This document shows, piece after piece, positions 1,482 through 50,802 of a DNA stretch of 64,000 nucleotides (positions within the stretch are counted from its first letter, which is position 1; the number at the start of each line of letters is the position of its first letter). Made by a program: the position numbers and the translations under genes. Below the pieces are notes generated by a model. It did no database searches, was not told the DNA's origin, and saw nothing but the letters and a program-made list of their open reading frames with translations. The DNA comes from Geodermatophilus sp. TF02-6 (GTDB taxonomy: Bacteria; Actinomycetota; Actinomycetes; Mycobacteriales; Geodermatophilaceae): the NCBI RefSeq assembly GCF_003319115.1, contig NZ_QOHF01000001.1, forward strand, positions 62,001 through 126,000, read 5' to 3'.

Positions 1482-1580
1482 GGCCCCTCGCAGGGGCCCG
1501 CCGCGAGCTCGTGAGCGGTGGGGCGAGGGGTCCTTCGAGGGGTCCTTCTCCGAGTGGTGAGGGGCAGGAGGGCCCTCTTC
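1482..1580. repeat. Dispersed GC-rich palindromic repeat, copy 1
   Basis: About 100 bp of GC-rich repeat ends exactly at the stop codon of the minus-strand NhaA-fusion gene. Its left part (GGCCCCTCGCAGGGGCCCGC, then GCGAGCTCGTGAG) nearly matches the copy inside iolB. Its right part has the recurring GGGGTCCTTC words. The 256 bp between the permease and the NhaA fusion hold nothing else recognisable, so this copy may also act as the terminator between two convergent genes. Confidence 0.75.
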
Positions 1581-4214
1581 TCAGTCGGCCGCGTCCACCG
1601 CGGCGTCCACCTCGGCGTCGGTCGGGTTGCGCAGCACCTGACCGCGCCGGCCGACCACCACCGGCAGGTCCTCCTCCGAGACGCCCAGCTCGGCCAGCAG
1701 CGCGGCGCCGTCACCGGTGGTGTCGAGGTCGACGAACGTGGCCGCCAGCCGGCGGGCGCGGGCGTAGTCCTGCAGCCGGCGGCTGTCCGGCGACCCGGCC
1801 CGCCCGACGATGCGCAGGTCGGCGGCGGCCTCGAGCAGCATGGACCGGCGCACGAGGAAGGCCCGCAGCACCAGTTCCTTCAGCGCCGGGTCGGCGGCGA
1901 ACACCCGGCGCATCCGGTCGTGGTCGAGCAGGAGCGTCTCGGCCGGCCGCAGCACCAGCGCGGTCAACGACACCGGCTGGCCGCCGAACAGGTCCAGCTC
2001 GCCGAGGAACCGTCGGGGTCCGTGCACGGAGAGCACCCGCTGGTCGGCGCGCCCGTGGTCTTCGACGATCGCGACCGCGCCGGAGAGCACGACGTGGAAG
2101 TCGTAGCCGGGGTCGCCCTCGCGGAACAGGGTGTCGCCGGGCTCGTGGCGTCGACGGGTCCCGGAGCGTTCCAGCAGGGCCAGCTGGGCGTCGTCCAACC
2201 GCGGGAAGGCGCCGTCCCGGTCCGGGGTCTCGGGCAGGTCCTCGGGCACCGTCACCGCGTCGTCCGCCGCCGCCCGCCGGTCCTCGCCGCGCCGCGGCCC
2301 CAGGACCGGCAGCGCCAGCCCGGCCGCGCCGTCGTCCGCAGGTGCCGCGGCGCCGTCCTCCCCCGCGGCGGCGAGCAGCTCGGCGGCGAGGGTGTCGGTG
2401 TCGTACGGGCCGGTGTGCCGCCGTCCGCCGACGAAGAAGGTGGGCGTGCCGGCGACCCCGCTGGCCTCGGCGGAGGCCACGTCCTCCTGCACCCGGCGGG
2501 CGTAGCGGCCGGACCCGAGGTCGCGGGCGAAGCGCTGGACGTCGAGGCCGATGGCGGCGGCGGAGTCGAGCAGGTCGGAGGCGGTCAGCCGGTCCTGCGT
2601 GTCGAAGAGCCGGTCGTGCATGTCCCAGAACCGGTCCTGGGCCGCGGCCGCCTCGCTGGCCTCGGCGGCCAGCTCGGCGTGCGGGTGGACGTCGACCAGC
2701 GGGACGTGCCGGAAGACGTAGCGCAGCCGGTCGCCAAACCGGGCGCGCAGCTCCTCGACCGTCCCGGTGGCCCGGCCGCAGAACGGGCACTCGAAGTCGC
2801 CGTACTCGACCAGCGTCAGCGGCGCGTCGGCCGGGCCGCGGACGTGGTCGCGGGCCGGGTCGACCGGCGGGTCGAGCAGCACCGGCCGCCCACCGGTACC
2901 GGGCGGGCGGCGGTGGTCGGCCAGCCGGAACAGCGCCCAGCCGAGCAGGGCGGCCAGCACCGAGGCGGCCAGGACGCCGACCCGGGCCTGGTCGGCGGTG
3001 CGCTCGTCGCCGCCGAGAGCGAGATCGACGATGAACAGCGCGATGGTGAACCCGATGCCCGACAGCGCGGCGCCGCCGGCCAGCTGCAGGCCGCCCAGGC
3101 CGGGGGCGAGCGCGCCGAGGCGCAGCCGCACGGCCAGCCCGGTGCCGAGCAGGATGCCGGCCAGCTTGCCGAGGACCAGCCCGGCGACCACGCCGAGCGT
3201 CACCGGCGAGGTCGCCGCGGTGCGCAGGGTGTCGCCGGTGAGCGCGACACCGGCGTTGGCCAGGGCGAACACCGGCACGATCACGAAGCTGGTCCACGGC
3301 TGCCACAGCTGCTGCAGCCGCTCGCTGGCCGACACCGACCGGTCGATGGACAGCCGCGCCGCGCGGGCGAACTCGGGGTTGGGCGACTGCTGGTAGGCCC
3401 GGGTCCGTCGGGCGGCCACCTCCACCTCCTCCCGGCGCGCCGGGTAGGCCGGGGTGAACAGGGCCATCACCACCCCCGCGAGGGTCGGGTGCACGCCGGA
3501 CTCGTAGGCCGCCACCCACACCGCGATGCCCAGGACCAGGTAGGCCGGGCCGCGCCAGACGTTGAGGTAGCGCAGGCCGAGCATCAGCGCCAGCCCGAGC
3601 AGCGCCAGCGCGAGCGGGCCCACCGCGAGGTCCTCGGTGTAGAAGAGCGCGATGACGCTGAGCGCGCCGACGTCGTCGGCGATGGCCAGGGTGAGCAGGA
3701 ACAGCCGCAGCTGCGCGGGGCAGGCCGGCCCGACCAGCGCCAGCACGCCCAGCAGGAAGGCGGTGTCGGTGGAGATGACCACGCCCCACGCCGACACCGC
3801 CTCGGTGCCGAGATTGAACGCCGCGTAGACCAGCGCGGGCACGGCCAGGCCGGTGAGCGCGGCGACCGCCGGCACCGCGGCCCGCCGCCGGTCGGTGAGC
3901 TCGCCCATGACCAGCTCGCGCTTGATCTCCAGCCCGACGACGAAGAAGAAGAACACCATCAGGCCGTCGTTGACCCAGTGCTGCAGGTTCAGGGAGAGCT
4001 CGGCGTCGCCCAGCCGGACGGCGAACTCGGTGTGCCAGAAGGTGTCGTAGCTGTCCCCGAACGGGGAGTTGGCCCACAGCAGCGCGGCCACGGTGGCCAG
4101 CAGCAGCAGCCCGGCGCTGCCCGCCTCGCTGCGCAGCCGCCGGCGCAGCGGGGCCACCCGGGCGAGCAGGCCGCGCCCGCCGGCCGGGGTCTGCCGCGCG
4201 ACGCTCGCGCTCAC
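1581..4214 (-). CDS. nhaA: NhaA Na+/H+ antiporter fused to DsbA-like, cNMP-binding and glutaredoxin-like domains
   Basis: The product is 877 residues, about twice a normal NhaA. Residues ~15-425 form NhaA, with the STDTAFLLG and IADDVGA motifs that include the paired aspartates used for ion exchange. Residues ~450-620 form a DsbA/thioredoxin_4 domain with C476-P-F-C479 and a GVAGTPTFFVGG cis-Pro loop. Residues ~670-790 form a CRP-like cyclic-nucleotide-binding domain (REGDPGYDFHVVLSG, FLGELDLFGG). The last ~75 residues resemble the glutaredoxin-like segment (LRIVGRAGSPDSRRLQDY, then VLRNP) found ahead of thioredoxin reductase in some actinobacterial cNMP-TrxR proteins, but no reductase follows. 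The GTG start overlaps the MFS stop by 4 bp. NhaA-thioredoxin fusions are known; the cNMP and glutaredoxin-like parts are unusual. One unbroken frame spans all four domains. Confidence 0.88.
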   Translation of the reverse strand: MSASVARQTPAGGRGLLARVAPLRRRLRSEAGSAGLLLLATVAALLWANSPFGDSYDTFWHTEFAVRLGDAELSLNLQHWVNDGLMVFFFFVVGLEIKRELVMGELTDRRRAAVPAVAALTGLAVPALVYAAFNLGTEAVSAWGVVISTDTAFLLGVLALVGPACPAQLRLFLLTLAIADDVGALSVIALFYTEDLAVGPLALALLGLALMLGLRYLNVWRGPAYLVLGIAVWVAAYESGVHPTLAGVVMALFTPAYPARREEVEVAARRTRAYQQSPNPEFARAARLSIDRSVSASERLQQLWQPWTSFVIVPVFALANAGVALTGDTLRTAATSPVTLGVVAGLVLGKLAGILLGTGLAVRLRLGALAPGLGGLQLAGGAALSGIGFTIALFIVDLALGGDERTADQARVGVLAASVLAALLGWALFRLADHRRPPGTGGRPVLLDPPVDPARDHVRGPADAPLTLVEYGDFECPFCGRATGTVEELRARFGDRLRYVFRHVPLVDVHPHAELAAEASEAAAAQDRFWDMHDRLFDTQDRLTASDLLDSAAAIGLDVQRFARDLGSGRYARRVQEDVASAEASGVAGTPTFFVGGRRHTGPYDTDTLAAELLAAAGEDGAAAPADDGAAGLALPVLGPRRGEDRRAAADDAVTVPEDLPETPDRDGAFPRLDDAQLALLERSGTRRRHEPGDTLFREGDPGYDFHVVLSGAVAIVEDHGRADQRVLSVHGPRRFLGELDLFGGQPVSLTALVLRPAETLLLDHDRMRRVFAADPALKELVLRAFLVRRSMLLEAAADLRIVGRAGSPDSRRLQDYARARRLAATFVDLDTTGDGAALLAELGVSEEDLPVVVGRRGQVLRNPTDAEVDAAVDAAD

Positions 4215-5740
4215 CGCGACGCCTCCGCCGCGGGCTGCCGGGGGTGCACCTGGGGTCCGGTCACCCCGCAGTGGGCGCAGCGCTCGAGCGCGAGGCGGGG
4301 AGCCGGCTCGGCCTCTCCGGCGTCCAGCGGACGGCGGACGAGGACGGCGGCCACCAGCGCCCCGGCGACCAGCAGCCCGGCGCAGATGAGCACCGCCGTC
4401 CGGAAGCCAGCCCCGAAGGCCGCCGGGTCGGTGTAGTCGCTGCCGCCCAGGCCGGCCGCGACCGGCACCACGGCCACCGCGAGCAGCCCGGCGGCCCGCG
4501 CGACGGCGTTGTTCACCCCGGAGGCGATGCCGGCGTAGCGGTCGGCGGCCGAGTCGAGGACCGTCGCGGTCAAGGGCGCCACCAGCAGCGTCAGCCCGGC
4601 CCCGAACACGGTGGCCGCGGGCAGCACGTCGACGACGTAGGAGGCGTCCGGGCCGATCCGCAGCATGAGCAGCACCCCGCCGGCGGCGACCAGCGGACCG
4701 GCGGTCAGCAGCGGCCGCGGGCCGATCCGCTGGGCCAGCGCGCCGACGCGGGAGGAGAACAGCAGCATGAGCACGGTCACCGGCAGCAGGGCGGTGCCGG
4801 CCAGCAGCGGGGTGAAGCCCGCGACGATCTGCAGGTGCAGCACGAGCAGCACGAACACCACACCCAGCGCGGCGTAGACCAGCAGGGTCACCACGTTGGC
4901 GGCGCTGAACTGCCCGGACGCGAACAGCGCCGGCGGCACCAGCGGGTGCGTCGAGCGCCGCTGCACGACGGCGAAGGCGGCCAGCGCCACCACCCCGGCG
5001 GCGCCCCAGACCAGCACCGCCGGACCGCGGCCGGGCTCGCCCGCCGCGGTCAGCGCGTAGGTCAGGCAGCCCAGGCCGACGACGACGAGCAGCGTCCCCG
5101 GCCAGTCCAGCCGGGACGCCGCCTGCGGGTTGCGCGACTCGGGCACGTACCGCACCGCCACGGCCACGACCACCGCGGCCAGCGGCAGGTTGAGCAGGAA
5201 CACGGTGCGCCAGTTCCACTGCACCAGCCAGCCGCCGACGAACGGCCCGACCGCCCCGGCCACGCCGCCCAGCCCCGACCACGCACCGACCGCCGCGGCC
5301 CGGTCTGACCCGTGGAAGGACGCCGAGATGATCGCCAGGCTGCCCGGCGTCAGCAGCGCGCCGCCGACGCCCTGCAGCGCGCGGGCGGCGATCAGCGTGC
5401 CGACGTCGGGCGCCAGGCCGCACAGCAGGGACGCCACGGCGAACCAGACCACGCCGATCAGGAACACCCGCCGCCGGCCGAACCGGTCGCCCAGGGAGCC
5501 GCCCATGAGGATCAGCGAGGCCAGCGTCAGCGTGTAGGCGTTGACCGTCCACTGCAGGTCGGAGAATCCGGCGTCCAGGTCGGTGCCGATCCGCTCCAGG
5601 GCCACGTTGACGACGGTCGCGTCGAGCATCGCCAGGCTCGAGCCCAGCACGGTGGTCAGCAGCACCCACCGCGCGCGGGGCGTGCCCATCCGCAGGCCTC
5701 CGTCGGCGGCGACCTCCGCTCGGGCCATCGCGCCTCCCAC
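4211..5740 (-). CDS. MFS transporter, DHA2 (14-TM drug exporter) family
   Basis: The product is 509 residues with about 14 predicted membrane segments. It carries the family's N-terminal motif C region (VLGSSLAMLDATVVNVALERIG), the QWTVNAYTLTLASL helix and the loop 2-3 motif GGSLGDRFGRRR. It is probably a proton-coupled exporter of drugs or metabolites. It lies upstream of and overlaps the NhaA-fusion gene, so the two are one minus-strand operon that may link multidrug and cation/pH stress. The tail after the last helix contains CAHCGVTGP, a small CxxC motif not usual in the family. A second ATG 12 bp downstream is an alternative start. Confidence 0.88.
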   Translation of the reverse strand: MGGAMARAEVAADGGLRMGTPRARWVLLTTVLGSSLAMLDATVVNVALERIGTDLDAGFSDLQWTVNAYTLTLASLILMGGSLGDRFGRRRVFLIGVVWFAVASLLCGLAPDVGTLIAARALQGVGGALLTPGSLAIISASFHGSDRAAAVGAWSGLGGVAGAVGPFVGGWLVQWNWRTVFLLNLPLAAVVVAVAVRYVPESRNPQAASRLDWPGTLLVVVGLGCLTYALTAAGEPGRGPAVLVWGAAGVVALAAFAVVQRRSTHPLVPPALFASGQFSAANVVTLLVYAALGVVFVLLVLHLQIVAGFTPLLAGTALLPVTVLMLLFSSRVGALAQRIGPRPLLTAGPLVAAGGVLLMLRIGPDASYVVDVLPAATVFGAGLTLLVAPLTATVLDSAADRYAGIASGVNNAVARAAGLLAVAVVPVAAGLGGSDYTDPAAFGAGFRTAVLICAGLLVAGALVAAVLVRRPLDAGEAEPAPRLALERCAHCGVTGPQVHPRQPAAEASR

Positions 5741-12437: not shown

Positions 12438-12467
12438 AGCAGCGTCCCCTCCGGCCTCTCTGCAGGT

Positions 12468-12546
12468 AGAAGGACCCCGTCCTCCCCGCCCCTCACGAGC
12501 TCGGGGCGGTGCCCTGGACGGGGCCGAGGGGCAAGGGGGTCCTTGT
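12468..12546. repeat. Dispersed GC-rich palindromic repeat, copy 2
   Basis: About 79 bp with inverted ends AAGGACCCC (12470) and GGGGTCCTT (up to 12545). The internal words CCCCGCCCCTCACGAGCTCG and GGGGCGG can form a hairpin. It abuts the stop codon of the minus-strand small gene and lies 30 bp after sdhB, so it separates two convergent genes and could serve as a bidirectional terminator. Confidence 0.75.
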
Positions 12547-12768
12547 TCAGTCGTCCTGCTGGGCGGCGGCCCGTCGCTCGGCGCCGGTCTCCCCGGCGTA
12601 GCCGACGTCCTGGCCGGCCACCCGCCCGACGAACTCGCCGGACTCGCCGGTGCCCGTCGTGGCCACCGCGTCCGGGGCGTCGCTGCCGCCGCCACCGCTC
12701 GCCCGCGTCAGCGCCTGCGCGTCGTCGCGGTCGACGTCGTCCTCACCGGGCCGGGGATCGGGCTGCAT
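12547..12768 (-). CDS. Small acidic protein of unknown function
   Basis: The product is 73 residues, rich in Asp, Gly and Ala (MQPDPRPGEDDVDRDD and so on), with no hydrophobic segment and probably disordered. CGGAGGACGACC gives a good ribosome binding site just before the ATG, which is the main support for calling it a gene. No family is recognised. The 3' end touches a repeat copy. Confidence 0.55.
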   Translation of the reverse strand: MQPDPRPGEDDVDRDDAQALTRASGGGGSDAPDAVATTGTGESGEFVGRVAGQDVGYAGETGAERRAAAQQDD

Positions 12769-13972: not shown

Positions 13973-15604
13973 ATGGCACGCCGGCTCTCCACCGCGAGGA
14001 CCCAGCCCCAGCACGGGGTCGCTCCCGCACCCGCGCCGTCCCCCTGGTGGCGGGACGCGGTCGTCTACCAGGTCTACCTGCGCTCGTTCGCCGACAGCGA
14101 CGGCGACGGCATCGGCGACCTGCGCGGCCTGCGGCAGCGGCTGCCCTACCTGGCCTGGCTCGGCGTCGACGCGGTGTGGATCAACCCGCACTACCCCTCG
14201 GGCGGCGCCGACGGCGGCTACGACGTCGTCGACTACCGCGCGGTCGACCCCGACTACGGCGACGTGGCCGACCTCGAGGCGCTGGTGGACGACGCCCGCC
14301 GGCTCGGGCTCAAGGTCGTGCTCGACGTCGTCCCCAACCACACCTCCGACCGGCACCCCTGGTTCCGGAGGGCGCTGGCCGACCCCGACTCCCCCGAGGC
14401 CGCCCGCTACCACTTCGCCCCGCCGTCGGAGGAGCCGCCGAACAACTGGCGCTCGCTGTTCGGCGGGCCGGCATGGTCACGCACCCCGGACGGGCGCTGG
14501 TACCTGCACCTGTTCGCCCCGGAGCAGCCCGACCTGAACTGGCGGGACCCCACCGTGGCGGAGGACTTCGAGCGGACCCTGCGGTTCTGGCTGGACCGGG
14601 GCGTGGCCGGCTTCCGGGTCGACGTCGCCTACGGGCTGTTCAAGGACGCCGGGCTGCGGGACAACCCGGGCTCCTACTCCCCCACCCTGTTCGGCCACGG
14701 GCCCGAGCAGGCCATGACCTGGAACCAGCCCGAGGTGCACGACGTGTGGCGCCGCTGGCGGGCGGTCTGCGACGAGTACCCCGACACCCTGCTGGTCGGC
14801 GAGGTCTGCCTGGCCGACCTGGGCCAGGTGGCGCTCTACTCGCGGCCCGACGAGCTGCACCAGTCGCTGTCGTTCCGGCTGCTGAAGTCACCGTGGGACG
14901 CCGGGTCGTTCGCCGAGGCCATCACCGGCGCGCTCGGCGCCTTCGGCCGGGTGGGGGCGCCGGTGTCGTGGGTGCTCGGCAACCACGACAAGGAGCGGCA
15001 GGTGACCCGCTTCGGCGGCGGGGCCGTGGGCGCCGCCCGCGCCCGCGCCGCGGCCCTGCTCGTGCTCGGGCTGCCGGGCTCGGCCTACCTCTACGCCGGG
15101 GACGAGCTCGGCCTGCCCCAGGCACACGTTCCCGACCAGGCCAGGCGCGACCCGATCTTCCACCGCAGCGGCGGCGCCCGCGCCGGCCGCGACGGCTGCC
15201 GCGTCCCGGTGCCGTGGAACACCACGCCCGGCGTCGGCTTCTCCCCCGACGGCGCTGCCGAGCCCTGGCTGCCGATCCCGGCGGACTGGGGCCGGTACGC
15301 GGTGTCGGTGCAGGCCGGGCAGGGCGGCTCGGTGCTCACCCTGCACCGGCGGGCGCTGGCGCTGCGCAAGGCGCATCCGGCGTTCGGCTCCGGCGAGGCG
15401 ACGGTGACCACCCGCGGCGACGTCCTGACCGTCCGCTCCGTCGGCGGGGGCGAGGCCGTCCGCTGCGTGGTCAACATGGGCGGCGAGACGGTGCTGGTCG
15501 GCTGCCCGGGCTCGGTGCTGCTGGCCTCGACCGCGCGGCTCCGCCGCACCGGCGCCACGCTCGCCCTGCCGCCGGACAGCGCGGTCTGGGTGCTGGAGGA
15601 CTGA
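13973..15604 (+). CDS. GH13 alpha-glucosidase
   Basis: The product is 543 residues. It shows the GH13 conserved regions in order: DVVPNHTSDRHPWF, GFRVDVAYG with nucleophile D217, GEV with acid/base E277, and GNHDKERQ with D339. The YQVYLRSFADSDGDGIGDLRG opening and the catalytic signature point to the oligo-1,6-glucosidase/alpha-glucosidase subfamily, probably acting on trehalose- or malto/isomalto-type oligosaccharides in the cytosol (no signal peptide). It stands alone, with about 170 bp upstream divergent from the toxin-antitoxin pair. The first ~23 residues are a proline-rich extension. Confidence 0.93.
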   Translation: MARRLSTARTQPQHGVAPAPAPSPWWRDAVVYQVYLRSFADSDGDGIGDLRGLRQRLPYLAWLGVDAVWINPHYPSGGADGGYDVVDYRAVDPDYGDVADLEALVDDARRLGLKVVLDVVPNHTSDRHPWFRRALADPDSPEAARYHFAPPSEEPPNNWRSLFGGPAWSRTPDGRWYLHLFAPEQPDLNWRDPTVAEDFERTLRFWLDRGVAGFRVDVAYGLFKDAGLRDNPGSYSPTLFGHGPEQAMTWNQPEVHDVWRRWRAVCDEYPDTLLVGEVCLADLGQVALYSRPDELHQSLSFRLLKSPWDAGSFAEAITGALGAFGRVGAPVSWVLGNHDKERQVTRFGGGAVGAARARAAALLVLGLPGSAYLYAGDELGLPQAHVPDQARRDPIFHRSGGARAGRDGCRVPVPWNTTPGVGFSPDGAAEPWLPIPADWGRYAVSVQAGQGGSVLTLHRRALALRKAHPAFGSGEATVTTRGDVLTVRSVGGGEAVRCVVNMGGETVLVGCPGSVLLASTARLRRTGATLALPPDSAVWVLED

Positions 15605-15620
15605 GGAAGGACCCCGTCCT
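15605..15620. repeat. Short end of the dispersed repeat
   Basis: GGAAGGACCCCGTCCT directly follows the TGA of the alpha-glucosidase, as it does after iolA. Only the terminal word of the repeat family is present; the rest of the 106-bp gap shows nothing recognisable. Confidence 0.5.
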
Positions 15621-23277: not shown

Positions 23278-24327
23278 TCAGGCTCCGGGGGCGGCGGGCG
23301 GCGGGCCGCTCGGCGGCGTGCCGCCCGGCCCGCCGGAGGGCGGCGCACCGCCGGGTGCGCCGGACGGCGCGCCGTCGCCGGCGAGCTGCCCGCCGGTCGG
23401 GGTGGTCGTGGTGTCGACGCCGACGGCGAGGGAGACGGTGTAGCCGTTCGTGACGTCGCCGGTCACGGTGGCCAGTTGGGAGGCGCCGCCGTCGTCCCCG
23501 AACACGTTGTCGCTGGCCAGGCTGATCTTCGCCAGGTTGGCGACCGACGCCTCGTAGCCGCTCGTGGCGTACACCGCGTCGCAGGCGTCCTGCGGCAGGG
23601 CGACCTGCGAGGTGGCGATGGCGTTGGTGGAATCGGTGGTGCTGGCCTGGTCGGAGTACACCTCGAAGTGGACGTGCGGCCAGCGCCCGCTGTAGCAGGC
23701 CGGGAAGATGCTGGTGAAGCGCACCTGTCCGGCCGCGTCGGCGACCTGCACGCCGCGCAGGTAGTTCTGGTCGGTGATGCCCTGCGAGTACATCGAGTAC
23801 CCGCCCTCGCGGTTGCAGTGCCACACGTAGACGGCCACTCCCTGGAACGGGACGCCGCCGCCCGCGAGGTCGGAGATCGTGAGCTCGAGGGTCATGGGGA
23901 CGCCCTCGGCCGTGCCGCTCGACCCGCCGAAGCTGGACCGGATGTCGCTGCGCACGATGCCGCTCTGCTCGAGCACGTCCGGCCCGTTGGACCCGTCCCC
24001 CGGGTAGGGCCCGGCCGTCTCGTCGGGGATCTCCCCGGACGCCGCGGTCGCCGCCACCGAGGACGACGCCGACGACGCAGCCGACGAGGACGACGCCGAT
24101 GAGGACGACGCCGATGAGGACGACGCCGACGGGGACGACGAGTCGGACCCGCAGGCCGCCAGGCCCACGGTCGCGGCACCCAGGCCGAGCACCTGCAGCA
24201 GCCTCCGCCGGCTCAGCAGGGTGCCGACGTCGAAGCCCAGACCCTGGTCGACGAGCTCCTCGTCGGGCCGGGCGAGGGGGCGGCCCTCGTAGGTCGGGGT
24301 CCGGTCCTGGTGGGCGGGCTGGTGCAC
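23278..24327 (-). CDS. Tat-exported intradiol-dioxygenase-like lipoprotein
   Basis: The product is 349 residues. A twin-arginine leader SRRRLLQVLGLGAATVGLAAC ends in a lipobox Cys, so the protein is probably exported and lipidated. A Ser/Ala linker of about 35 residues follows. The core (ETAGPYPGDGSNGPDVL, then GVPFQGVAVYVWHCNREGGYSMYS and FPACYSGRWPHVHFEVYSD) matches the extracellular intradiol ring-cleavage dioxygenase-like family; HVHFEV holds the metal-site histidines. The C-terminus is a Gly/Pro-rich tail. It is convergent with ackA. The true substrate of these surface proteins is unclear. Confidence 0.85.
   Translation of the reverse strand: MHQPAHQDRTPTYEGRPLARPDEELVDQGLGFDVGTLLSRRRLLQVLGLGAATVGLAACGSDSSSPSASSSSASSSSASSSSAASSASSSVAATAASGEIPDETAGPYPGDGSNGPDVLEQSGIVRSDIRSSFGGSSGTAEGVPMTLELTISDLAGGGVPFQGVAVYVWHCNREGGYSMYSQGITDQNYLRGVQVADAAGQVRFTSIFPACYSGRWPHVHFEVYSDQASTTDSTNAIATSQVALPQDACDAVYATSGYEASVANLAKISLASDNVFGDDGGASQLATVTGDVTNGYTVSLAVGVDTTTTPTGGQLAGDGAPSGAPGGAPPSGGPGGTPPSGPPPAAPGA
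24086..24130. repeat. Tandem 15-bp repeat coding for the Ser-rich linker
   Basis: Three head-to-tail copies of GAGGACGACGCCGAT (the last with one change) encode the serine blocks of the lipoprotein linker on the minus strand. The copy number is likely to vary between strains by slippage, without shifting the frame. Confidence 0.8.
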
Positions 24328-26343: not shown

Positions 26344-26404
26344 CGGCCCCTCTGCAGGGTCCCGCTGCGAGCCTGCGAGCAGTGGGGGGCAGAGGGGTCC
26401 TCCC
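26344..26404. repeat. Dispersed GC-rich palindromic repeat, copy 3
   Basis: GGCCCCTCTGCAGGGTCCCG, then GCGAGCCTGCGAGC and GGGGGGCAGAGGGGTCCT end exactly at the stop codon of the next minus-strand gene. The order of words is the same as in the iolB and Gfo/Idh copies. A degenerate extra stretch extends left to about 26290. Confidence 0.7.
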
Positions 26405-26647
26405 TCAACCGAGGCGGAAGAGCTCTCGGCGGGTCTGCCGGTCGAGGATGGCGGCCGCGTCGCTCCCGGTCGGGGCGCGGTCGGTGATCAGGGCGACGAG
26501 GTCGTCACGGTCGGCGGCGGTCGCGTAGTCGGCGAGTTCGCGCTCGAGGACGCGGCGGGCGCGCCGCTGCACGAGGCGACGGCGCAGCGCAGCCGGGAGG
26601 CCCAGGTCGGGGGTGGTGGCGGCGATGGCGAACCCGGTGCCCTGCAT
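26405..26647 (-). CDS. Hypothetical 80-residue protein
   Basis: The product is 80 residues with an Arg-rich helical middle (LRRRLVQRRARRVLERELADYATAADRDDLVALI). No domain is recognised. It follows the GntR gene by 47 bp on the same strand and could be co-transcribed with it. The call rests on frame length, composition and neighbourhood only. Confidence 0.5.
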   Translation of the reverse strand: MQGTGFAIAATTPDLGLPAALRRRLVQRRARRVLERELADYATAADRDDLVALITDRAPTGSDAAAILDRQTRRELFRLG

Positions 26648-29545: not shown

Positions 29546-30532
29546 ATGAAGGCACGGGCCGACGGCCCCCTTGCAGGGGCCCGCCGCGAGCTTGCGAGGG
29601 ATGAGGAGGACGGGGTCCTTCTGGGGGGGCAAGGGGGTCCTTCAACGCTGCACCTGCCCGCCGGCACCGCCGCCGCCGGCCCGTACGCCCTCGAGGTGAC
29701 ACCGGAGTCCGCCGGCTGGGGGCACTCGAGCCTGCGCGTGCTCGACCTGCCCGCCGGCGGGGAGCACACCCTGGACACCGGCCCCGACGAGGTCGTCGTC
29801 GTCCCGCTGGAGGGCGGCCTGACCGTCGAGTGCGACGGGGAGGTGTTGACCCTCGCCGGGCGCAGCGGCGTCTTCGCCGGCCCCACCGACTTCGCCTACC
29901 TGCCCCTCGGGGCCACGGCGACGCTGTCCAGCCGGGACGGCGGGCGCTTCGCGCTCTGCGGCGCCCGCGCCCGCCGGCGGCTGCCGGTGCGCTACGGTCC
30001 CGCCGCGGACGTCCCGGTCGAGCTGCGCGGCGCCGGCCGGTGCAGCCGCCAGGTGAACAACTTCGCCACCGCCGACGTCTTCGCGGCCGACGCGCTCATC
30101 GCCTGCGAGGTCATCACCCCCGGCGGCAACTGGTCGTCCTACCCGCCGCACAAGCACGACGAGACCTCCGAGACCGAGACCGAGCTCGAGGAGATCTACT
30201 ACTTCGAGGTCGCGCCCGGGCCGCAGGGCCAGCCCGGTATGGCCTACCAGCGGGTCTACGGGACTCCCGAGCGGCCGATCGACGTGCTGGCCGAGGTGCG
30301 CGACCGCGACGTCGTCCTCATCCCCCACGGGTGGCACGGCCCGTCGATCGCCGCCCCCGGCCACGACCTCTACTACCTCAACGTCATGGCCGGCCCCGGG
30401 CCCGAGCGCGCCTGGCGGATCGTCGACGACCCCGAGCACGCGTGGATCCGCGGCACCTGGGCGGCCGAGGACGTCGACCCGCGCCTGCCCCTGCACGCCC
30501 CTGTCAACCCGAACGGAGGGCCCCGACCGTGA
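29546..30532 (+). CDS. iolB: 5-deoxy-glucuronate isomerase with repeat-encoded N-terminus
   Basis: The product is 328 residues of bicupin. The conserved core begins at about residue 34 (LHLPAGTAAAGPYALEVTPESAGWGHSSLRVLDLPAG) and includes NWSSYPPHKHDETSETETELEEIYYFEV with the metal ligands and PHGWHGPSIAAPGHDLYYLNVMAGP. It isomerises 5-deoxy-glucuronate to 5-dehydro-2-deoxygluconate. Residues ~7-33 are not part of the family; they are read through a copy of the dispersed repeat. The ATG at 29546 follows GAGGAGC. No good start exists between the repeat and the core. It overlaps iolD by 4 bp. Confidence 0.9.
   Translation: MKARADGPLAGARRELARDEEDGVLLGGQGGPSTLHLPAGTAAAGPYALEVTPESAGWGHSSLRVLDLPAGGEHTLDTGPDEVVVVPLEGGLTVECDGEVLTLAGRSGVFAGPTDFAYLPLGATATLSSRDGGRFALCGARARRRLPVRYGPAADVPVELRGAGRCSRQVNNFATADVFAADALIACEVITPGGNWSSYPPHKHDETSETETELEEIYYFEVAPGPQGQPGMAYQRVYGTPERPIDVLAEVRDRDVVLIPHGWHGPSIAAPGHDLYYLNVMAGPGPERAWRIVDDPEHAWIRGTWAAEDVDPRLPLHAPVNPNGGPRP
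29564..29645. repeat. Dispersed repeat copy inside iolB
   Basis: GGCCCCCTTGCAGGGGCCCGC and the following GCGAGCTTGCGAG, GACGGGGTCCTTC and GGGGGTCCTTC words match the intergenic copies, above all the one at 1482. The 82-bp copy has no stop in the iolB frame and ends directly before the conserved IolB core, so it supplies the protein's N-terminus. Confidence 0.85.
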
Positions 30533-35425: not shown

Positions 35426-35436
35426 GGAGGACACCC

Positions 35437-36930
35437 ATGCCTGCCCACATCCCGCACTGGATCGACGGCGCCCGGCGCGAGGGTGCCAGCGGCCGCACCG
35501 GCGACGTGACCGACTCGGCGACCGGCGAGGTCATCGGCGAGGTCGCGCTGGCTTCTCCCGAGGAGGTCGACGCGGCGGTCGCCGCCGCCACCGCCGCCTT
35601 CCCCGCCTGGCGGGACATGTCGCTCACCAGGCGGACCGCGGTGCTCTTCCGCTTCCGCGAGCTGCTCAACGCCCGCAAGCCCGAGCTGGCCGCGATCATC
35701 ACCGCCGAGCACGGCAAGGTCCTCGACGACGCCCTCGGTGAGGTCTCCCGCGGCCAGGAGGTCGTGGAGTACGCCTGCGGCATCCCGTCGCTGATGCGCG
35801 GCGGGTTCACCGAGAACGCCTCCACCAACGTCGACGTGCACTCGATCCGCCAGCCGCTCGGCCCGGTGGCCATCATCAGCCCGTTCAACTTCCCGGCGAT
35901 GGTGCCGATGTGGTTCTTCCCCATCGCGATCGCCACGGGCAACACCGTCGTCCTCAAGCCCAGCGAGCAGGACCCGTCGGCAGCGCTGTGGATGGCCGAG
36001 CTGTGGAAGGAGGCCGGGCTGCCCGACGGCGTGTTCAACGTCGTCCAGGGCGACAAGGTCGCCGTCGACCGGCTGCTCGAGCACCCCGACATCAAGGCGG
36101 TGTCCTTCGTCGGGTCCACCGCGATCGCCCGCTACGTGTACGAGACCGGCACGCGGACCGGCAAGCGGGTGCAGGCCCTCGGCGGCGCGAAGAACCACAT
36201 GGTCGTCCTGCCCGACGCCGACCTGGACCTGGCCGCCGACGCCGCGGTGAACTCCGGGTTCGGCTCGGCCGGTGAGCGCTGCATGGCGATCAGCGCGGTG
36301 CTCGCCGTCGGCGGGGTCGGCGACGACCTGGTCGCGCGCATCGCCCAGCGCACCGCCACCCTGCGCACCGGGGACGGCCGCAAGGGCTGCGACATGGGGC
36401 CGCTGATCAGCAAGCGGCACCGCGACCGCGTCGCCTCCTACGTCGAGGCCGGCGAGAAGGAGGGCGCCAAGCTCGTCGTCGACGGCCGCCGGGTGCAGCC
36501 CGACGGCGGTGCGGACGGCTTCTGGCTCGGCCCGACGCTGGTCGACCACGTCGAGCCGGACATGAGCGTCTACACCGACGAGATCTTCGGCCCGGTGCTG
36601 TCGGTGCTGCGGGTGGACAGCTACGAGCACGCCGTCGAGCTGATCAACTGCAACGAGTACGGCAACGGCACCGCGATCTTCACCAACGACGGCGGCGCCG
36701 CCCGCCGGTTCCAGCACGAGGTGGAGGTCGGGATGATCGGCATCAACGTGCCGATCCCGGTGCCGATGGCCTACTACTCCTTCGGCGGGTGGAAGAACAG
36801 CCTCTTCGGCGACACCCACGCCCACGGCGCCGAGGGCGTGCACTTCTTCACCCGGGGCAAGGTGGTCACCAGCCGCTGGCTCGACCCCAGCCACGGCGGC
36901 CTCAACCTCGGCTTCCCGCAGAACGCCTGA
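35437..36930 (+). CDS. iolA: CoA-acylating methylmalonate-semialdehyde dehydrogenase
   Basis: The product is 497 residues of aldehyde dehydrogenase. It has SPFNFPAMVPMWFFPIAIA, GSTAIARYVYETG, LGGAKNHMVVLPDADL and the catalytic C282 in GSAGERCMAISAV, the exact MmsA/IolA signature. It lacks the usual general-base glutamate of hydrolytic ALDHs, as expected for the CoA-dependent enzyme. It turns malonate semialdehyde into acetyl-CoA, ending the inositol pathway. It is the last gene of the iolC-A operon; a repeat begins at the base after the stop. Confidence 0.95.
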   Translation: MPAHIPHWIDGARREGASGRTGDVTDSATGEVIGEVALASPEEVDAAVAAATAAFPAWRDMSLTRRTAVLFRFRELLNARKPELAAIITAEHGKVLDDALGEVSRGQEVVEYACGIPSLMRGGFTENASTNVDVHSIRQPLGPVAIISPFNFPAMVPMWFFPIAIATGNTVVLKPSEQDPSAALWMAELWKEAGLPDGVFNVVQGDKVAVDRLLEHPDIKAVSFVGSTAIARYVYETGTRTGKRVQALGGAKNHMVVLPDADLDLAADAAVNSGFGSAGERCMAISAVLAVGGVGDDLVARIAQRTATLRTGDGRKGCDMGPLISKRHRDRVASYVEAGEKEGAKLVVDGRRVQPDGGADGFWLGPTLVDHVEPDMSVYTDEIFGPVLSVLRVDSYEHAVELINCNEYGNGTAIFTNDGGAARRFQHEVEVGMIGINVPIPVPMAYYSFGGWKNSLFGDTHAHGAEGVHFFTRGKVVTSRWLDPSHGGLNLGFPQNA

Positions 36931-37110
36931 GGAAGGACCCCGTCCCAGGTGGCCCCGCCCCAGCGGCTCGCCACCGGCCCTCCTGCAGGGCCCCCGGCCC
37001 CGTCCCGGGTCCCGCCCCGAGCCTGCGAGGGGCGGGGAGGACGGGGTCCTTCTCCGCATGGTGGGGGGCAGGAGGGTCCTTCTCCGGCGAGGGGGGACGG
37101 GGTCCTGCGA
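36931..37110. repeat. Dispersed GC-rich palindromic repeat, copy 4 (compound)
   Basis: GGAAGGACCCCGTCC follows the iolA stop. From about 36977 a full copy in the other direction runs through CTGCAGGGC, CCGCCCCGAGCCTGCGAGGG, GGACGGGGTCCTT and GGAGGGTCCTTCTCC, so the ends are inverted AAGGACCCCGTCC and GGACGGGGTCCTT. Some further GACGGGGTCCT words lie up to 37110. It probably also ends iol transcription. Confidence 0.8.
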
Positions 37111-46201: not shown

Positions 46202-46291
46202 GCGTCCGGCGTGACCCCGCTCACTGTCAACCGCCCGCCGGGTCGGATCGCAGACGACGACGCGGCGGCACCGCCCGGACCCCCGGCACGG

Positions 46292-47314
46292 TCAGCCCTC
46301 GACGGCTGCCGGGCCGGTCGTCCCCCGCACCACGAGGCGCGGGGGGACGACGACCTCGCGGTGCTCGGTGCGCCCGCCGTCGAGCCGCTCGACCACGGCG
46401 GCCACCGCGTGCCGCACCAGCTGCGGGGAGTCCTGGCTGACCGTGGTCAGGTCGATGTGCGCCAGCCGCGCGAGCGGGCTGTCGTCGTAGCCCACGACGG
46501 AGACCGCGCCGGGGACGTCGATGCCGCTGCGCAGCAGCGCGTCGAGCAGGCCCACCGCGGAGTGGTCGTTGTAGGTGGCGACGGCCGTGGGCGGCAGGTC
46601 GGACCCGAACAGCGCCCGCGCCGCGCGCGCCCCGGACTCCTCGGTGTGGTTCCCGCGCACCACCTGCAGGTGGGCTCCCAGCCGATGGCGGCGCATCGCC
46701 CGCTGGTAGCCGCGTCGCCGGCCGGCGGCGATGACCCCCGCGCCGCCGTCGACGTAGGCGATGCGGCGGTGACCGAGGTCGACCAGGTGGTCCACGGCCA
46801 GGGCCACACCGTCGTCGTCCGCGGCCCGGACGACGTCCACACCGGCGGAGGGCACCGGGCGCCCGACGGCCACCACGGGCAGCTGCCGGTCGAGGGCGGT
46901 CAGCCGGGCGGCGGGGGCCTCCGGGCCGAGGAGGACCAGCGCCTCGCACCGCGAGTCGAGCAGCGTCTCGACCGCGCGCGCCTCGTCCCGGGTGCGGGTG
47001 ACCGTGCTGAGCACCAGGTCGTAACCGTGCCCCTCGGCCGCCTCGTGGACGTCCTCGACGAGCTGGGCGTGGAAGGTGCTGCGGACGTCCATCAGGACGC
47101 CGATGAGCCGGCTGCGCCGGCGGGCCAGCAGGCTGGCGGCGCGGTCGGGCCGGTAGCCCAGGCGAGCCGCGGCCTCGAGCACGCGCTCGCGGGTGGCGCT
47201 GCCGGGGCCGGGGGCGCCGCGCAGCACCAGGGACGCCGACGCCGTCGAGACCCCTGCCGCGGTCGCCACGTCCTGCAGCCGTGGCCGGCGCACCGACTCC
47301 TCCGTGCTCACCAC
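46292..47314 (-). CDS. LacI-family transcriptional regulator
   Basis: The product is 340 residues. HTH: RPRLQDVATAAGVSTASASLVLRGAPGPGSATRERVLEAAARLGYRPD. Ligand domain: LIGVLMDVRSTFHAQLVEDVHEAAEGHGYDLVLSTV, through to VVGYDDSPLARLAHIDLTTVSQD. It is about 40% like the regulator at 42706 by eye, so the two are paralogues. It lies between the P450 gene and a divergent dehydrogenase/isomerase pair, with matching TTAAAGCGCTTTAA-type sites in front of both. GTG codons at 47314 and 47311 are both possible starts. Confidence 0.9.
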   Translation of the reverse strand: MVSTEESVRRPRLQDVATAAGVSTASASLVLRGAPGPGSATRERVLEAAARLGYRPDRAASLLARRRSRLIGVLMDVRSTFHAQLVEDVHEAAEGHGYDLVLSTVTRTRDEARAVETLLDSRCEALVLLGPEAPAARLTALDRQLPVVAVGRPVPSAGVDVVRAADDDGVALAVDHLVDLGHRRIAYVDGGAGVIAAGRRRGYQRAMRRHRLGAHLQVVRGNHTEESGARAARALFGSDLPPTAVATYNDHSAVGLLDALLRSGIDVPGAVSVVGYDDSPLARLAHIDLTTVSQDSPQLVRHAVAAVVERLDGGRTEHREVVVPPRLVVRGTTGPAAVEG

Positions 47315-47370
47315 GGCCCACCCCGCTCCCTTGACACCTCGGCCGACCCCTGGTGTGATCGGCGCCAGTA

Positions 47371-47384
47371 TTAAAGCGCTTTAA
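47371..47384. promoter_or_regulatory. LacI operator (perfect palindrome) in divergent promoter
   Basis: TTAAAGCGCTTTAA is a perfect 14-bp palindrome with a central GC step, lying 57 bp upstream of the LacI gene and about 100 bp upstream of the divergent dehydrogenase. A near-identical copy is found before the P450 fusion. Confidence 0.85.
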
Positions 47385-47485
47385 GAGCGCTCGGCCCACC
47401 CCGCCCGCCGCGCGGAGCGTGCCACGTCCGCAGGGACGGCCTCCTGCCCACCGCGGCCCGTCCACCGCACGTGAGGAGAACAGCG

Positions 47486-48673
47486 ATGCCGCAGCAGCCA
47501 CTGTCGGTGGCGGTGATCGGTGCCGGGATGGCCGGCCGCAGCCACGCCGCCGGCTACCGCTCGGTGAACACCGTCTTCGGCGAGGGCCTCCCGCCGGTCC
47601 GGCTGGCCGCGATCGCCGACGCCGACGCCGAGCTCGCCCGGGACGCGGCCCGCCGCTACGGGTTCGAGCAGGCGCTGACCAGCTGGGAGCAGGTCGTCGA
47701 CGACCCCTCGATCGACGCGATCAGCATCGTCGTCGGCAACGCCCTGCACCGGCCGATCGCCGAGGCGGCGATCGCGGCCGGCAAGCACGTGCTGTGCGAG
47801 AAGCCGCTCGCCGGCTCGATCGAGGACGCCCGCGCGATGGTGGCGGCGGAGCAGGGCGCCGACGTCGTCACCGCCGTCGGGTACACCTACCGGCGGTCCC
47901 CGGCGATCGCGGCGGTCCGCGACCACGTGCGCGGCGGCGAGCTCGGCGAGCTCTCCCTGTTCGACGGCCGCTACTGGTGCGACTACGCCTGCGACCCGCG
48001 CATCCCGCTCAGCTGGCGGTACACGGGCGGGCCGGGCAGCGGCGCCCTCGCCGACATCGGCGCGCACGTGATCGACGTCGCCCAGTTCCTCTGCGGGCCG
48101 ATCGTGGCGGTGTCCGGCGCGGCCCTGTCGACCCAGGTCGCCAAGCGGCCGCTGCCGCTCGGGGCGGTGGTCGGGCACACCGCGGCACCGGTGAGCAGCG
48201 AGACCGGCGAGGTCGAGAACGAGGACACCGCCGTGTTCACCGCCCGCTTCGAGTCGGGCCTCACCGGCTCGTTCTCGGTGTCGCGCACCGCGTTCGGCAT
48301 GCCCAACGGGCTGGCCTTCGACGTGTACGGGCTGGGTGGCCGCGCCGGCTTCGACTGGCACCGCCCGGCGGAGTACCTGTTCGACGACGCGCAGCCCGAG
48401 TCGCGCACCCGCGGCGCCCGGCAGGTGATCGTCGGCCCGCAGACGCCGTACTTCGCCGGCGGCTACCCGATGCAGGCCCCCGGCGTCGGCGGCGGCAACG
48501 CGGAGATGTTCGTCTACCAGTGCCGGGCGTTCCTCGACCAGATCACCGGCGGCCCCGACCCGCTGCCGCCGAACGCGACCTTCGCCGACGCCCTCCACAC
48601 CATGGAACTGATCCAGGCCGTCGTCCGCTCCGCCCAGTCCGGTGGGGCCGCCGTCCCCGTCCCCACCGCGTGA
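47486..48673 (+). CDS. Gfo/Idh/MocA family dehydrogenase
   Basis: The product is 395 residues with VAVIGAGMAGRSHAAGY, LCEKPLAGS (catalytic Lys), VGYTYRRSPAIAAVRDHV and SGALADIGAHVIDVAQFLCGP (Asp/His positions). Its longer length (about 390) and insertion pattern place it with sugar or glycoside oxidising members (levoglucosan- or glucoside-3-dehydrogenase-like) rather than the ~335-residue IolG type; this is an inference. GAGGAGAACAGCG precedes the ATG. It forms a two-gene unit with the isomerase 22 bp downstream, controlled by the adjacent LacI regulator. Confidence 0.86.
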   Translation: MPQQPLSVAVIGAGMAGRSHAAGYRSVNTVFGEGLPPVRLAAIADADAELARDAARRYGFEQALTSWEQVVDDPSIDAISIVVGNALHRPIAEAAIAAGKHVLCEKPLAGSIEDARAMVAAEQGADVVTAVGYTYRRSPAIAAVRDHVRGGELGELSLFDGRYWCDYACDPRIPLSWRYTGGPGSGALADIGAHVIDVAQFLCGPIVAVSGAALSTQVAKRPLPLGAVVGHTAAPVSSETGEVENEDTAVFTARFESGLTGSFSVSRTAFGMPNGLAFDVYGLGGRAGFDWHRPAEYLFDDAQPESRTRGARQVIVGPQTPYFAGGYPMQAPGVGGGNAEMFVYQCRAFLDQITGGPDPLPPNATFADALHTMELIQAVVRSAQSGGAAVPVPTA

Positions 48674-48695
48674 TCCGACCGGGAGGTCCCCCGCG

Positions 48696-49694
48696 ATGCC
48701 GCTCAAGCTCGGCGCCTACACCGCCTGCCTGCACGACCGCCCTCTGGCCGAGGCCCTCGACGTGCTGCAGGCCGACGGCCTGACCTCGGTCGAGGTCAAC
48801 ACCGGCGGGTTCATCCCGTCCCCGCACTGCCACGTCGACCTGCTGCTGTCCTCCGAGCAGGCCCGCCGGGACTACCTGGAGACGTTCTCCTCGCGCGGGA
48901 TGGAGCTGACCGGGCTGAACTGCAATGGCAACCCGCTCAACCCGCTCCCCGGCGTCGGCCCGAAGCACGCCGACGACCTGCGCCGCACCATCGAGCTCGC
49001 CGGCCTGCTGGGCGTGCGCAACGTGGTCACGATGTCCGGCACACCCGGCTCGGACCCCGACGCCAAGTACCCCTCCTGGGTGGTCAACCCGTGGGACGGC
49101 GTGTACCTGGACGTCCTGGACTACCAGTGGGACGTCGCGGCCGGCTTCTGGACGGAGATCGACGCGCGCGCCCGCGACGCCGACGTCCGGGTCGCCGTCG
49201 AGATGCACCCGCACAACCTGGTGTTCTCCCCCGTCACCCTGCGCCGGCTGGTGGAGACGATCGGCGCGACGAACGTGGGCGCCGAGATGGACCCGTCGCA
49301 CCTGATGTGGCAGGGCATGGACGTCGTCGCCTGCATCCACGACCTCGGCCCGCTGGTGTTCCACGCCGCGGCCAAGGACGCGACCATCACCCCCGGGGTC
49401 GACGTCCGCGGGGTGCTGGACACCTCGTTCACCCGGGTGCCCGCCGACGCACCGGACAAGGTGCCCACCGGCTACGGCTACTGGTGCACCGCCTGGCCCG
49501 AGAACCCGGCGTGGCGGTTCGTGGCCGTCGGCGTCGGCCACGACGTCGACTGGTGGACCGGGTTCCTCCGGGCGCTGGCCGAGGTCGACCCGGACATGGC
49601 GGTCAACATCGAGCACGAGGACGCCGCCTACGACCGCCTCGACGGCCTGGCCCTGGCCGCCGAGAACCTCAGGGCAGCCGCGGAGAAGCTGTAG
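48696..49694 (+). CDS. TIM-barrel sugar isomerase/epimerase
   Basis: The product is 332 residues of the AP-endonuclease-2-like family: KLGAYTACLHDRPLAEALDVLQADGLTSVEVNTGGFIPSPHCHVDLL, then VAVEMHPHNLVFS, NVGAEMDPSHLMWQGMD, VFHAAAKDATI and AVNIEHEDAAYDRL give the metal-binding Glu, Asp, His and Glu set. It probably handles the keto sugar made by the preceding dehydrogenase. GGGAGGTCCCCCGCG precedes the ATG. Its last 26 bp overlap the 3' end of the convergent Gfo/Idh gene. Confidence 0.86.
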   Translation: MPLKLGAYTACLHDRPLAEALDVLQADGLTSVEVNTGGFIPSPHCHVDLLLSSEQARRDYLETFSSRGMELTGLNCNGNPLNPLPGVGPKHADDLRRTIELAGLLGVRNVVTMSGTPGSDPDAKYPSWVVNPWDGVYLDVLDYQWDVAAGFWTEIDARARDADVRVAVEMHPHNLVFSPVTLRRLVETIGATNVGAEMDPSHLMWQGMDVVACIHDLGPLVFHAAAKDATITPGVDVRGVLDTSFTRVPADAPDKVPTGYGYWCTAWPENPAWRFVAVGVGHDVDWWTGFLRALAEVDPDMAVNIEHEDAAYDRLDGLALAAENLRAAAEKL

Positions 49695-50802
49695 GAACGG
49701 TCAGCCGCGGCCGGGGCGCCAGCCCGGCGAGCTCGTAGCACCGGTCGACCAGCGTCATGGTCGCGACCGCGTCGTCCGCGTCGGTGGGCACCGTAGAAGG
49801 ACCCCCTGTCCCCCCACCGTTCGGGGAAGGACCGCTTCCTTCCCACCCCTCGCAGGCTCGGGGCGGGACCCGGGAGGCGGCCGGGGCCCCTGCAGGGGGC
49901 CGGTGACGGACGGCGGCGGTGAACGCCTCCAGCTGGTACGTGTACGACGAGCGGGTGCCCAGGTGCTCGGTCCGCGCGCCGGCCGGGGTGCGCACCAGCA
50001 CCCGGTCGTCCCGGTTCGGCTCGACGAACGCCGGCGCCGTCGCCTCCCCGCGGGTACCGACGATGCGCAGCGAGAAGTCCCGGTCGGGGTGCACCATGCT
50101 GCAGCGCACCGTGGCCGTGGCGCCGGACGGGAAGCGCAGGTCGACGTCGAGCCACTCGTCGACGCCCGGGGCCCCGGCGCGCTCCCCGGCCCGCGCGGCG
50201 ACCGGCTCCGGTTCGCCGCCGGTCCACGGCGCCAGGTGGCGCGCGGCGTGCAACCCGTAGCAGCCGAGGTCCATCAGGGCGCCGCCGGCGAGCTCGAGCG
50301 ACCAGCGGGGGTCGTCGTCGTCCGGCGGCAGCATGGCGATGGTCGCCTGCACGTGGACGACGTCGCCCAGTTCGCCCGAGTCGACCAGCTCCAGCAGACG
50401 GCGCACCACCGGGTGGTAGAGGTGGTGGAAGCCCTCCATCACCACGAGGCCCGCGCGCTCCGCGGCGTCGCGGACCTCCGCGGCCTCCGCGGCGTTGGCG
50501 GCGAACGGCTTCTCGGACAGCACGTGCTTGCCGGCGGCGACGGCGGCCAGGTTCCAGGGGCCGTGCAGGGCGTTGGGCAGCGGGTCGTAGACCGCCTCCA
50601 CCTCCGGGTCGGCCAGCACGTCCGCGTACGAGGGCAGCACGCGCTCGACGCCGTGCGCGCGGGCGAACTCCTCCGCGCGCGCGGGGTCCCGGGCGGCGAC
50701 GGCGACCAGCCGGGCGCCGGTGGTCCGCGCCGGGACCACGATCCCCCGCTCGCTGATGCGGGCCGCCCCGAGCACCCCGATCCGCAGCGGTCCGCTCGTC
50801 AC
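49669..50802 (-). CDS. Gfo/Idh/MocA dehydrogenase with an in-frame repeat insertion
   Basis: The product is 377 residues: LRIGVLGAARISERGIVVPARTTGARLVAVAARDPARAEEFARAHG, then LSEKPFAANAAEA (catalytic Lys) and GALMDLGCYGLHAARHL. This matches the trans-1,2-dihydrodiol/xylose-dehydrogenase-like branch. Residues ~301-336 (RPPAGAPAASRVPPRA through GGTGGPST) are foreign: the conserved flanks YTYQLEAFTAAVRH and TDADDAVATMTLVDRCYELAGL normally join within a few residues. The insert is a repeat copy read in frame, so the protein is probably still made. GTG at 50802 overlaps the upstream dehydrogenase stop; the 3' end overlaps the convergent isomerase gene. Confidence 0.85.
   Translation of the reverse strand: MTSGPLRIGVLGAARISERGIVVPARTTGARLVAVAARDPARAEEFARAHGVERVLPSYADVLADPEVEAVYDPLPNALHGPWNLAAVAAGKHVLSEKPFAANAAEAAEVRDAAERAGLVVMEGFHHLYHPVVRRLLELVDSGELGDVVHVQATIAMLPPDDDDPRWSLELAGGALMDLGCYGLHAARHLAPWTGGEPEPVAARAGERAGAPGVDEWLDVDLRFPSGATATVRCSMVHPDRDFSLRIVGTRGEATAPAFVEPNRDDRVLVRTPAGARTEHLGTRSSYTYQLEAFTAAVRHRPPAGAPAASRVPPRACEGWEGSGPSPNGGGTGGPSTVPTDADDAVATMTLVDRCYELAGLAPRPRLTVPTASPRLP
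49796..49902. repeat. Dispersed repeat copy inside a Gfo/Idh dehydrogenase gene
   Basis: GAAGGACCCCCTGTCCCCCC, a GGAAGGACCGCTTCC module, CCCCTCGCAGGCTCGGGGCG and GGGGCCCCTGCAGGGGGCC follow in the family's order. The 107-bp copy plus target leaves the host frame open. It has the same coding direction and frame at its GGGGGTCCTTC end (Gly-Gly-Pro-Ser-Thr) as the copy in iolB. Confidence 0.85.

Follow-up and report, generated by a model that had tools for sequence, protein, structure and literature searches.

What kind of element is a GC-rich palindrome that recurs along a locus and often abuts a stop codon? The initial annotation of the window, by which we mean the whole stretch of 64,000 nucleotides that was analysed, had proposed either that it belongs to a family of terminators or that it is a small mobile palindrome, targeting stop codons or creating them anew. 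All copies named there are present in the window, and the 16-bp end at 15605 was confirmed as well. Profile matches delimit six units at 1485-1536(-), 12469-12523(+), 26349-26401(-), 29567-29621(-), 36999-37052(-) and 49826-49877(+), and each of the copies at 12468, 29564, 36931 and 49796 combines at least two units or half units (Table 1). Several of the starts that had been assigned to the copies are in fact the far ends of minus-strand units; the end meeting the stop codon is the AAGGACC end. Five copies had been described as directly adjoining a stop, and five do lie at the stops of called genes (anchors 1576(-), 12543(-), 15608(+), 26401(-) and 36934(+)), of which only three are firm because the other two genes are small ORFs lacking any Pfam match. 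Neither the TAG in front of 12468 nor the TAG in front of 49796 ends a called gene, and next to the anchor at 29641 there is only an ORF on the antisense strand, opposite the KduI/IolB gene and likewise with no Pfam match. Since the GFO/IDH/MocA ORF crosses the element pair at 49796-49899 in its 3' part, the annotated C-terminus of this protein may be coded by the element.

Table 1: Copies of the repeat in the window (positions counted from the first letter of the window; a point in the strand column marks features with parts on both strands).
Positions	Strand	Composition	Context
1485..1576	-	unit 1485-1536 plus two 5' pieces; AGG anchor 1576	anchor 4 nt past TGA of Na+/H+ antiporter gene 1581-4214(-)
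12453..12546	.	nested pair: outer copy on -, anchor 12543, 3' limit judged by eye; inner unit 12469-12526 on +	outer copy reads TGA-ACA-AGGACC after minus ORF 12547-12768 (73 aa, no Pfam match)
15605..15620	+	5' half only (GGAAGGACCCCGTCCT)	adjoins TGA of alpha-amylase-family gene 13973-15604
26345..26403	-	one complete unit	TGA-GGG-AGGACC after minus ORF 26405-26647 (80 aa, no Pfam match)
29564..29642	-	unit 29564-29621 plus outer 5' piece upstream (anchor 29641)	precedes KduI/IolB gene 29696-30532(+); no confirmed gene stop
36931..37110	.	composite: 5' half on + at 36931; unit 36995-37052 on -; more minus anchors at 37080 and 37106	past TGA of aldehyde dehydrogenase gene 35437-36930
49796..49902	+	nested pair: outer anchor 49798, inner unit 49826-49877	within 3' part of GFO/IDH/MocA ORF 49669-50802(-); no called gene stop

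Apart from these copies the window contains an inverted pair at 51894-51934 and 52980-53020 (41 nt, 80% complementary), which carries GGTCAACCTCGG words, flanks the gene 51920-52969 and may be another repeat. A short series of 15-nt repeats (GACGACGCCGATGAG) is found at 24046-24148 inside a called coding region.

With an iterated profile, 102 units were detected in a sample of 856 kb from the same genome, comprising contigs C42 and C26 as a whole, C13:62001-246000 with the window included and C34:1-100000, and one dinucleotide shuffle of the same 856 kb gave 0 units with the same profile. Chance or GC content as the source of the copies is thereby ruled out, and the objection that a scan might reveal no more copies than chance would supply fails. 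By extrapolation from the density in this sample, the whole genome (actinobacterial in appearance, 4.73 Mb in 53 contigs, with a GC content of 74% in the window) would hold about 560 units. A BLAST search of the genome with one copy gave at least 62 matches (40 scored of 477 candidates). Within the window AAGGACCCC occurs 10 times against 0.36 expected from dinucleotides, GAGCCTGCGAGG and relatives of AAGGACCCC likewise exceed the dinucleotide expectation, and the weakly informative CTGCAGGG occurs 15 times against 3.8 expected. A search of Rfam gave no gathering matches within the window.

The hairpin unit is 55-58 nt long and is built in the order RAAGGACC, arm, loop CTCGCNNGCTCG, arm and GGCC. 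For an alignment we used 63 of the 102 units, namely those with a bit score of at least 38 and a complete 3' end, and obtained the consensus GAAGGACCCCGTCCTCCCCACCCCTCGCANGCTCGGGGCGGGNCCCTGGACGGGGCCG. In the outer arm CCCCGTCC pairs with GGACGGGG, or CCCCCTGC with GCAGGGGG in other subtypes, and in the inner arm CCCACC pairs with GGCGGG and encloses the loop. In this alignment 93.1% of the stem cells are paired compared to 82.1% in shuffles, and the stem covariation amounts to 0.264 compared to 0.102 after shuffling. Stem cells with changes on both sides number 99, against 34.6 when shuffled and 2-25 with the partners slid, the cells being non-independent events and the paired structure beating its slid versions in part because it was taken from the consensus. 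At two outer pairs both partners have changed, in 25/62 and 21/62 sequences respectively, and the stem is maintained through compensatory changes. Some copies carry a 3' tail, GGCCGTTCCAG[CT]ACGTCACC, which is also found in tandem with steps of 46 nt. At G000 C26:80510-80650 (locus L055) the tandem 46-nt repeats consist of the 3' half of the unit and the tail GTTCCAGTCTGTCACC, with CACC as the point of junction to the loop, and similar 46-nt tandem repeats were seen in genomes G015 and G014.

With genes called by a custom codon-usage script, the suggested check for enrichment at stop codons gave a sharp peak. The first AGG[AG]CC lies at stop+3 for 47 of the 751 called stops in the 856 kb, and the distances 0, 1, 2, 4, 5, 6, 7 and 8 account for 7, 4, 4, 5, 2, 3, 1 and 1 cases, respectively; a further 15/751 at stop -1 are, by their sequence, element ends mixed with chance words. 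As a control, 521 positions located 300 nt inside genes resulted in 8 matches, none of them at +3. Using profile matches in 10 segments from 5 species (2.06 Mb), 106/217 unit 5' ends fall within -5..8 of a called stop and form one peak with 65 at a single position, and another 39/217 complete 5' ends are located at 9..60 from the stop, many of them at the spacing of nested copies. The corresponding numbers for complete unit 3' ends facing a stop on the opposite strand are 8/184 within -5..8 and 47/184 at 9..60, without a peak. This polarity of 5' versus 3' ends is the best internal control, limited in that 3' ends have access only to stops of convergent genes. In 80 loci from named relatives the +3 register was present in 45/551 stops, followed by 11 at +1, 9 at +4 and 8 at -1, where only the register is informative because the loci had been picked for holding an element. 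All 45 of these +3 stops are TGA and 38 of them follow a C. The +3 class as defined by the motif has TGA in 109/110 cases against 1180/1327 at empty stops and a C before the stop in 87% against 56% at empty stops, the preferred register mostly reading C-TGA-NNR-AGGACC. Taken together, the family is real, specific and structured, and one of its ends is anchored to stop codons.

Among 201 anchored units 100 are at called stops, with 62 at +3, and 101 are found elsewhere. A permissive pattern places 89 of these 101 inside or behind another copy; eight of the 12 that are left follow an uncalled stop triplet that closes a reading frame of 42-284 open codons, one of these eight lying inside another called gene. 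A stricter pattern counts 54/101 as nested in or behind another copy and leaves 47, 22 of which come after a stop triplet at -1..4 and 25 after none. Depending on the nesting pattern, called stops thus account for 68% to 89% of the un-nested copies, and the share rises to 83% to 96% when copies at stop triplets are included. The set contains 1808 called stops, and noncoding element-free DNA contains 4354 stop triplets that are no called stops (3177 TGA, 968 TAG and 209 TAA). As at most 22 un-nested copies follow these triplets, compared to 100 copies at called stops, the use of a bare stop triplet is lower than that of a called stop by a factor of roughly ten, and stops of uncalled genes probably account for a part of the 22. 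Nested copies on the same strand start 22, 25 or 29-30 nt past the outer anchor in 31/43 cases, which is in or just before the loop, as the loop of an intact unit begins at 21-22 nt, and some of the inner copies are preceded by GTAG. The complement of the outer arm (at least 8 nt) was recovered behind the inner copy in 12/43 cases against 60/860 re-paired controls. A different arm-pairing test for nesting did not separate nested copies from those at stops.

A covariance model of the repeat matched 26/26 genomes of the genus, including the one studied here, 8/11 other members of the family, one of them with 3 matches only, and 0/24 genomes from other families of the order. The counts per genome are mostly lower bounds, with 91 candidates scored, and the three genomes of other genera without matches (G029, G032 and G034) are small or fragmented assemblies. 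The names carried by 80 loci among at least 109 matches are all Geodermatophilus, Blastococcus or Modestobacter, which are soil bacteria of the Geodermatophilaceae, and so far the repeat family has been found only in this bacterial family. An origin from plasmids or phages was considered and rejected, as one 58-base unit had no match among 72,556 plasmid records and 50,697 phage records at E 1e-5.

Empty sites in relatives had been proposed as a sign of movement, and we compared the stops of the alpha-amylase-family gene of the window and of two genes that we take to be atpD and rpsB, their protein families having been found by search, across the genus. At one and the same stop some species have a full unit, whose stem subtype varies, others a half unit and still others no copy directly behind the stop. 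AGGRCC at -1..7 was present in 7/25 loci for the amylase gene, 11/26 for atpD and 10/25 for rpsB, counts that miss variant units and may include a few chance words. In the collinear atpD-rpsB region of 5 genomes AGGRCC stands at -1..7 in one or more genomes for 58/170 ortholog groups and is lacking throughout for the other 112, with some of the 58 being chance words (e.g. genes 57, 77 and 79). An orthologous stop can therefore hold a copy in one species and none in another, and the idea of copies that are always at orthologous sites with no sign of movement is contradicted by this comparison, movement itself not having been directly seen. The stop mostly keeps its native position, the protein end being the same in 75/103 occupied-empty pairs and in 721/900 empty-empty pairs. 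In the remaining occupied-empty pairs the shorter protein is usually that of the occupied stop (22 vs 6). TAG was found at 19/61 empty orthologs of +3 sites compared to 30/389 never-occupied sites; for TAG and TAA together the values are 19/61 and 41/389 (Fisher p=7e-5, with non-independent rows) or, counted by site, 13/28 and 16/101. As the empty orthologs are rich in TAG and the +3 class is nearly all TGA, TAG is enriched among likely targets and becomes TGA.

In several cases the element supplies the stop, as for rpsB, which ends with TAAGGACC in three species and with GGC-TGA in most relatives, and for the gene C42:111811-113487. The old end CTGGCTAGGGTGCGG of gene 93 is still found behind the element in two species, the native end of pair 141 is intact downstream, the insertion in pair 32 (G015 vs G024) is located almost exactly behind the stop, and gene 152 represents one case with RTGA on both sides. 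Junctions between these distant species, judged by eye, showed no consistent target duplication and no single rule, and no case of a recent insertion separating near-identical strains turned up. Because the compared genomes belong to different species, gain, loss and replacement look alike at most sites. In the gap behind rpsB (L286-L310) several species without the repeat carry a different GC-rich hairpin directly behind the gene, so a hairpin at this place is itself recurrent.

The search for a mover covered two enzyme families, Y1_Tnp and RVT_1. No match for Y1_Tnp was obtained in the genome itself at E<=1 or in 25 genomes of the genus (own included) at E<=0.001 with positive controls, and Y1/RAYT was rejected as the mover. 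RVT_1 is absent here and in 11/24 other genomes of the genus that were searched and thus does not track the repeat, which led us to reject a reverse transcriptase, too.

Like the REP and BIME elements with RAYT (GTAG superfamily) and the CGTC REPs, the repeat forms short, high-copy, extragenic hairpins in composite arrays, and it agrees with REPs in the broad sense in its high copy number, its palindrome with covariation and the location of about half of its 5' ends directly behind called genes. According to PMC3733652 the ends of GTAG REPs often supply the TAG stop of flanking ORFs, and the words Actinobacteria and Streptomyces are absent from its main text. For E. coli REPs within 15 nt of stops PMC12306157 lists 260/496 from an earlier study and 446/4,072 from a newer scan. 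Our repeat differs from the REP/RAYT systems in its length with its own ends and loop, in the preferred +3 register, in nesting at the loop and in the lack of a Y1/RAYT match in the 25 genomes of the genus. It also differs from GTAG REPs at the foot of the hairpin, where no GTAG is found in the +3 class and TGA followed by NNR precedes AGGACC (109/110). MIRU of mycobacteria, with DTGA as its target, is likewise a short actinobacterial repeat at gene borders. It is apparently mobile and inserts at start codons with -4 spacing (PMC12548453). MIRU couples to the start of the next gene and inserts where stop and start overlap, with one of its ends on the start codon, whereas the 3' ends of our repeat have no preferred distance to starts in the 45 copies for which a start on the same strand follows in the next 100 nt, so that a MIRU-like coupling was rejected; the two are set apart here by description. 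MITEs and Correia-type elements, ERIC and RUP are non-autonomous, palindromic, intergenic and dispersed, as is our repeat, which in contrast to MITE-type elements shows no constant target duplication (by eye) and no autonomous partner among the two enzyme families searched. The attC site of integrons is an imperfect palindrome behind a stop codon as well, but the repeat is dispersed behind conserved chromosomal genes, e.g. atpD and rpsB. Overall it resembles REPs in kind and MIRU in living at gene borders, and it fails the tests for RAYT/GTAG and for start coupling. No description of it was found in the open-access literature searched, including the accessible parts of PMC9686282, PMC3035280, PMC3733652, PMC12320835, PMC12306157, PMC2734929 and PMC12548453. 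A second apparent dispersed palindrome, with the words TGATCAGCTGAGCTGATC and GGCTCAC..GTGAGCC, was seen behind some stops or between genes (G000 C42 near 208863, with orthologs in G008, G014 and G024; L109 and L103).

Strong GC hairpins directly behind genes, with stems conserved by compensation, would be expected from intrinsic, possibly bidirectional terminators that belong natively to their genes and owe their spread to descent and gene conversion alone. On the sense strand, however, the 8 nt behind the hairpin contain 0-1 T in 111/153 units and 3 T in 9/153, and a GC hairpin followed by a U-tract is thus absent, which leaves room for terminators lacking a U-tract. The antisense side is richer in T (70/201 with 3-4 T in 8 nt) and speaks for terminators, as does the slightly higher share of stops before a convergent gene among occupied (36/100) than among unoccupied genes (502/1703). 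This is no clear excess of copies between convergent genes, however, which together with the missing U-tract argues against plain terminators. The remaining 64/100 occupied stops precede a gene on the same strand (1201/1703 for unoccupied genes), which argues against terminators together with the copies behind rpsB, where the next gene is presumably tsf, and with a separate hairpin CGGCCGG..CCGGCCG that is located within 400 nt behind atpD in 24/26 species, repeat present or not. Furthermore, termination needs neither the +3 register nor nesting. Judged by these sequence features the copies appear unlike a terminator set, which weakens the terminator half of the initial proposal, and we regard terminators as an unlikely explanation. 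Even less can be said for RAYT-mobilised REP elements of the GTAG type or a relative of IS200/IS605, which would account for the copy number, the hairpin, the intergenic place, the composite arrays and the GTAG before some inner copies: no Y1_Tnp was found in the genomes searched, the +3 class reads TGA-NNR and not GTAG, and this origin is very improbable.

If the repeat inserted at a plain DNA motif C-T-R-R (e.g. CTGA or CTAG) and copies elsewhere were purged, stops would merely be tolerated places. The frequent C before the stop, the TAG at empty orthologs and up to 22 copies after non-called stop triplets would fit such a model, which is rendered rather doubtful by the far more frequent use of called stops, as insertion at the other triplets should be no more harmful. 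Tentatively, insertion may also have been broad, with copies near stops kept by selection as a useful hairpin for mRNA 3' protection or translation damping. This is a possibility that we would keep in mind without expecting it to hold, and it agrees with the compensatory stem changes, the different subtypes held at one stop and the other hairpin behind rpsB in species without the repeat. E. coli REPs less than 16 nt from a stop can lower translation, as reported in PMC12306157, and the first paired base of our repeat, about 5 nt behind the stop, is inside this reach. The single-nucleotide register is nevertheless tighter than such a role seems to need, and un-nested copies off stops are few (25/201 anchored units with the stricter pattern). 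We favour, as the probable explanation, a non-autonomous REP-like palindromic family that is inserted, or retained, at stop codons and would have spread by insertion at or just behind them through an activity other than Y1/RAYT. Polar anchoring, empty orthologous sites, differing subtypes and element-supplied stops argue for it and lend support to the earlier idea of a mobile palindrome targeting or recreating stops. Insertion would be driven by a host or trans-acting activity and would bring or restore TGA, by which the protein end would be preserved. In the mRNA the hairpin, starting so close to the stop, might then influence the ribosome during termination or the decay from the 3' end and not serve mainly as a terminator, an effect on termination or decay being plausible but inferred. 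Against this explanation stands that the searches gave no transposase, that target duplications of constant length were not seen and that no recent insertion was found to set near-identical strains apart. A register kept by functional selection would look much like targeted insertion; the register favours targeting, and the missing mover, the lack of clean junctions and the off-stop minority leave it unproven.

A more far-reaching version, improbable in our opinion, is that the repeat homes to stops as such, with insertion coupled to termination (for instance through mRNA or DNA that is accessible where the ribosome terminates), showing no dependence on the codon other than the C-T-R-R bias and writing its own TGA when needed. 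If this were true, the repeat would colonise about a tenth of the gene ends with little harm to the proteins. Palindromic repeats near stops are known; this family is marked by the one orientation, the mostly single register and the occurrence across a bacterial family with no detected RAYT, which points to a kind of stop-codon-anchored repeat that is undescribed so far. A practical pitfall is that units can alter annotated C-termini and intergenic lengths. The repeat family makes two questions accessible to testing, namely by what means REP-like repeats are moved in the absence of a RAYT, and whether a hairpin placed at the stop codon adjusts translation termination or mRNA decay across the genome.
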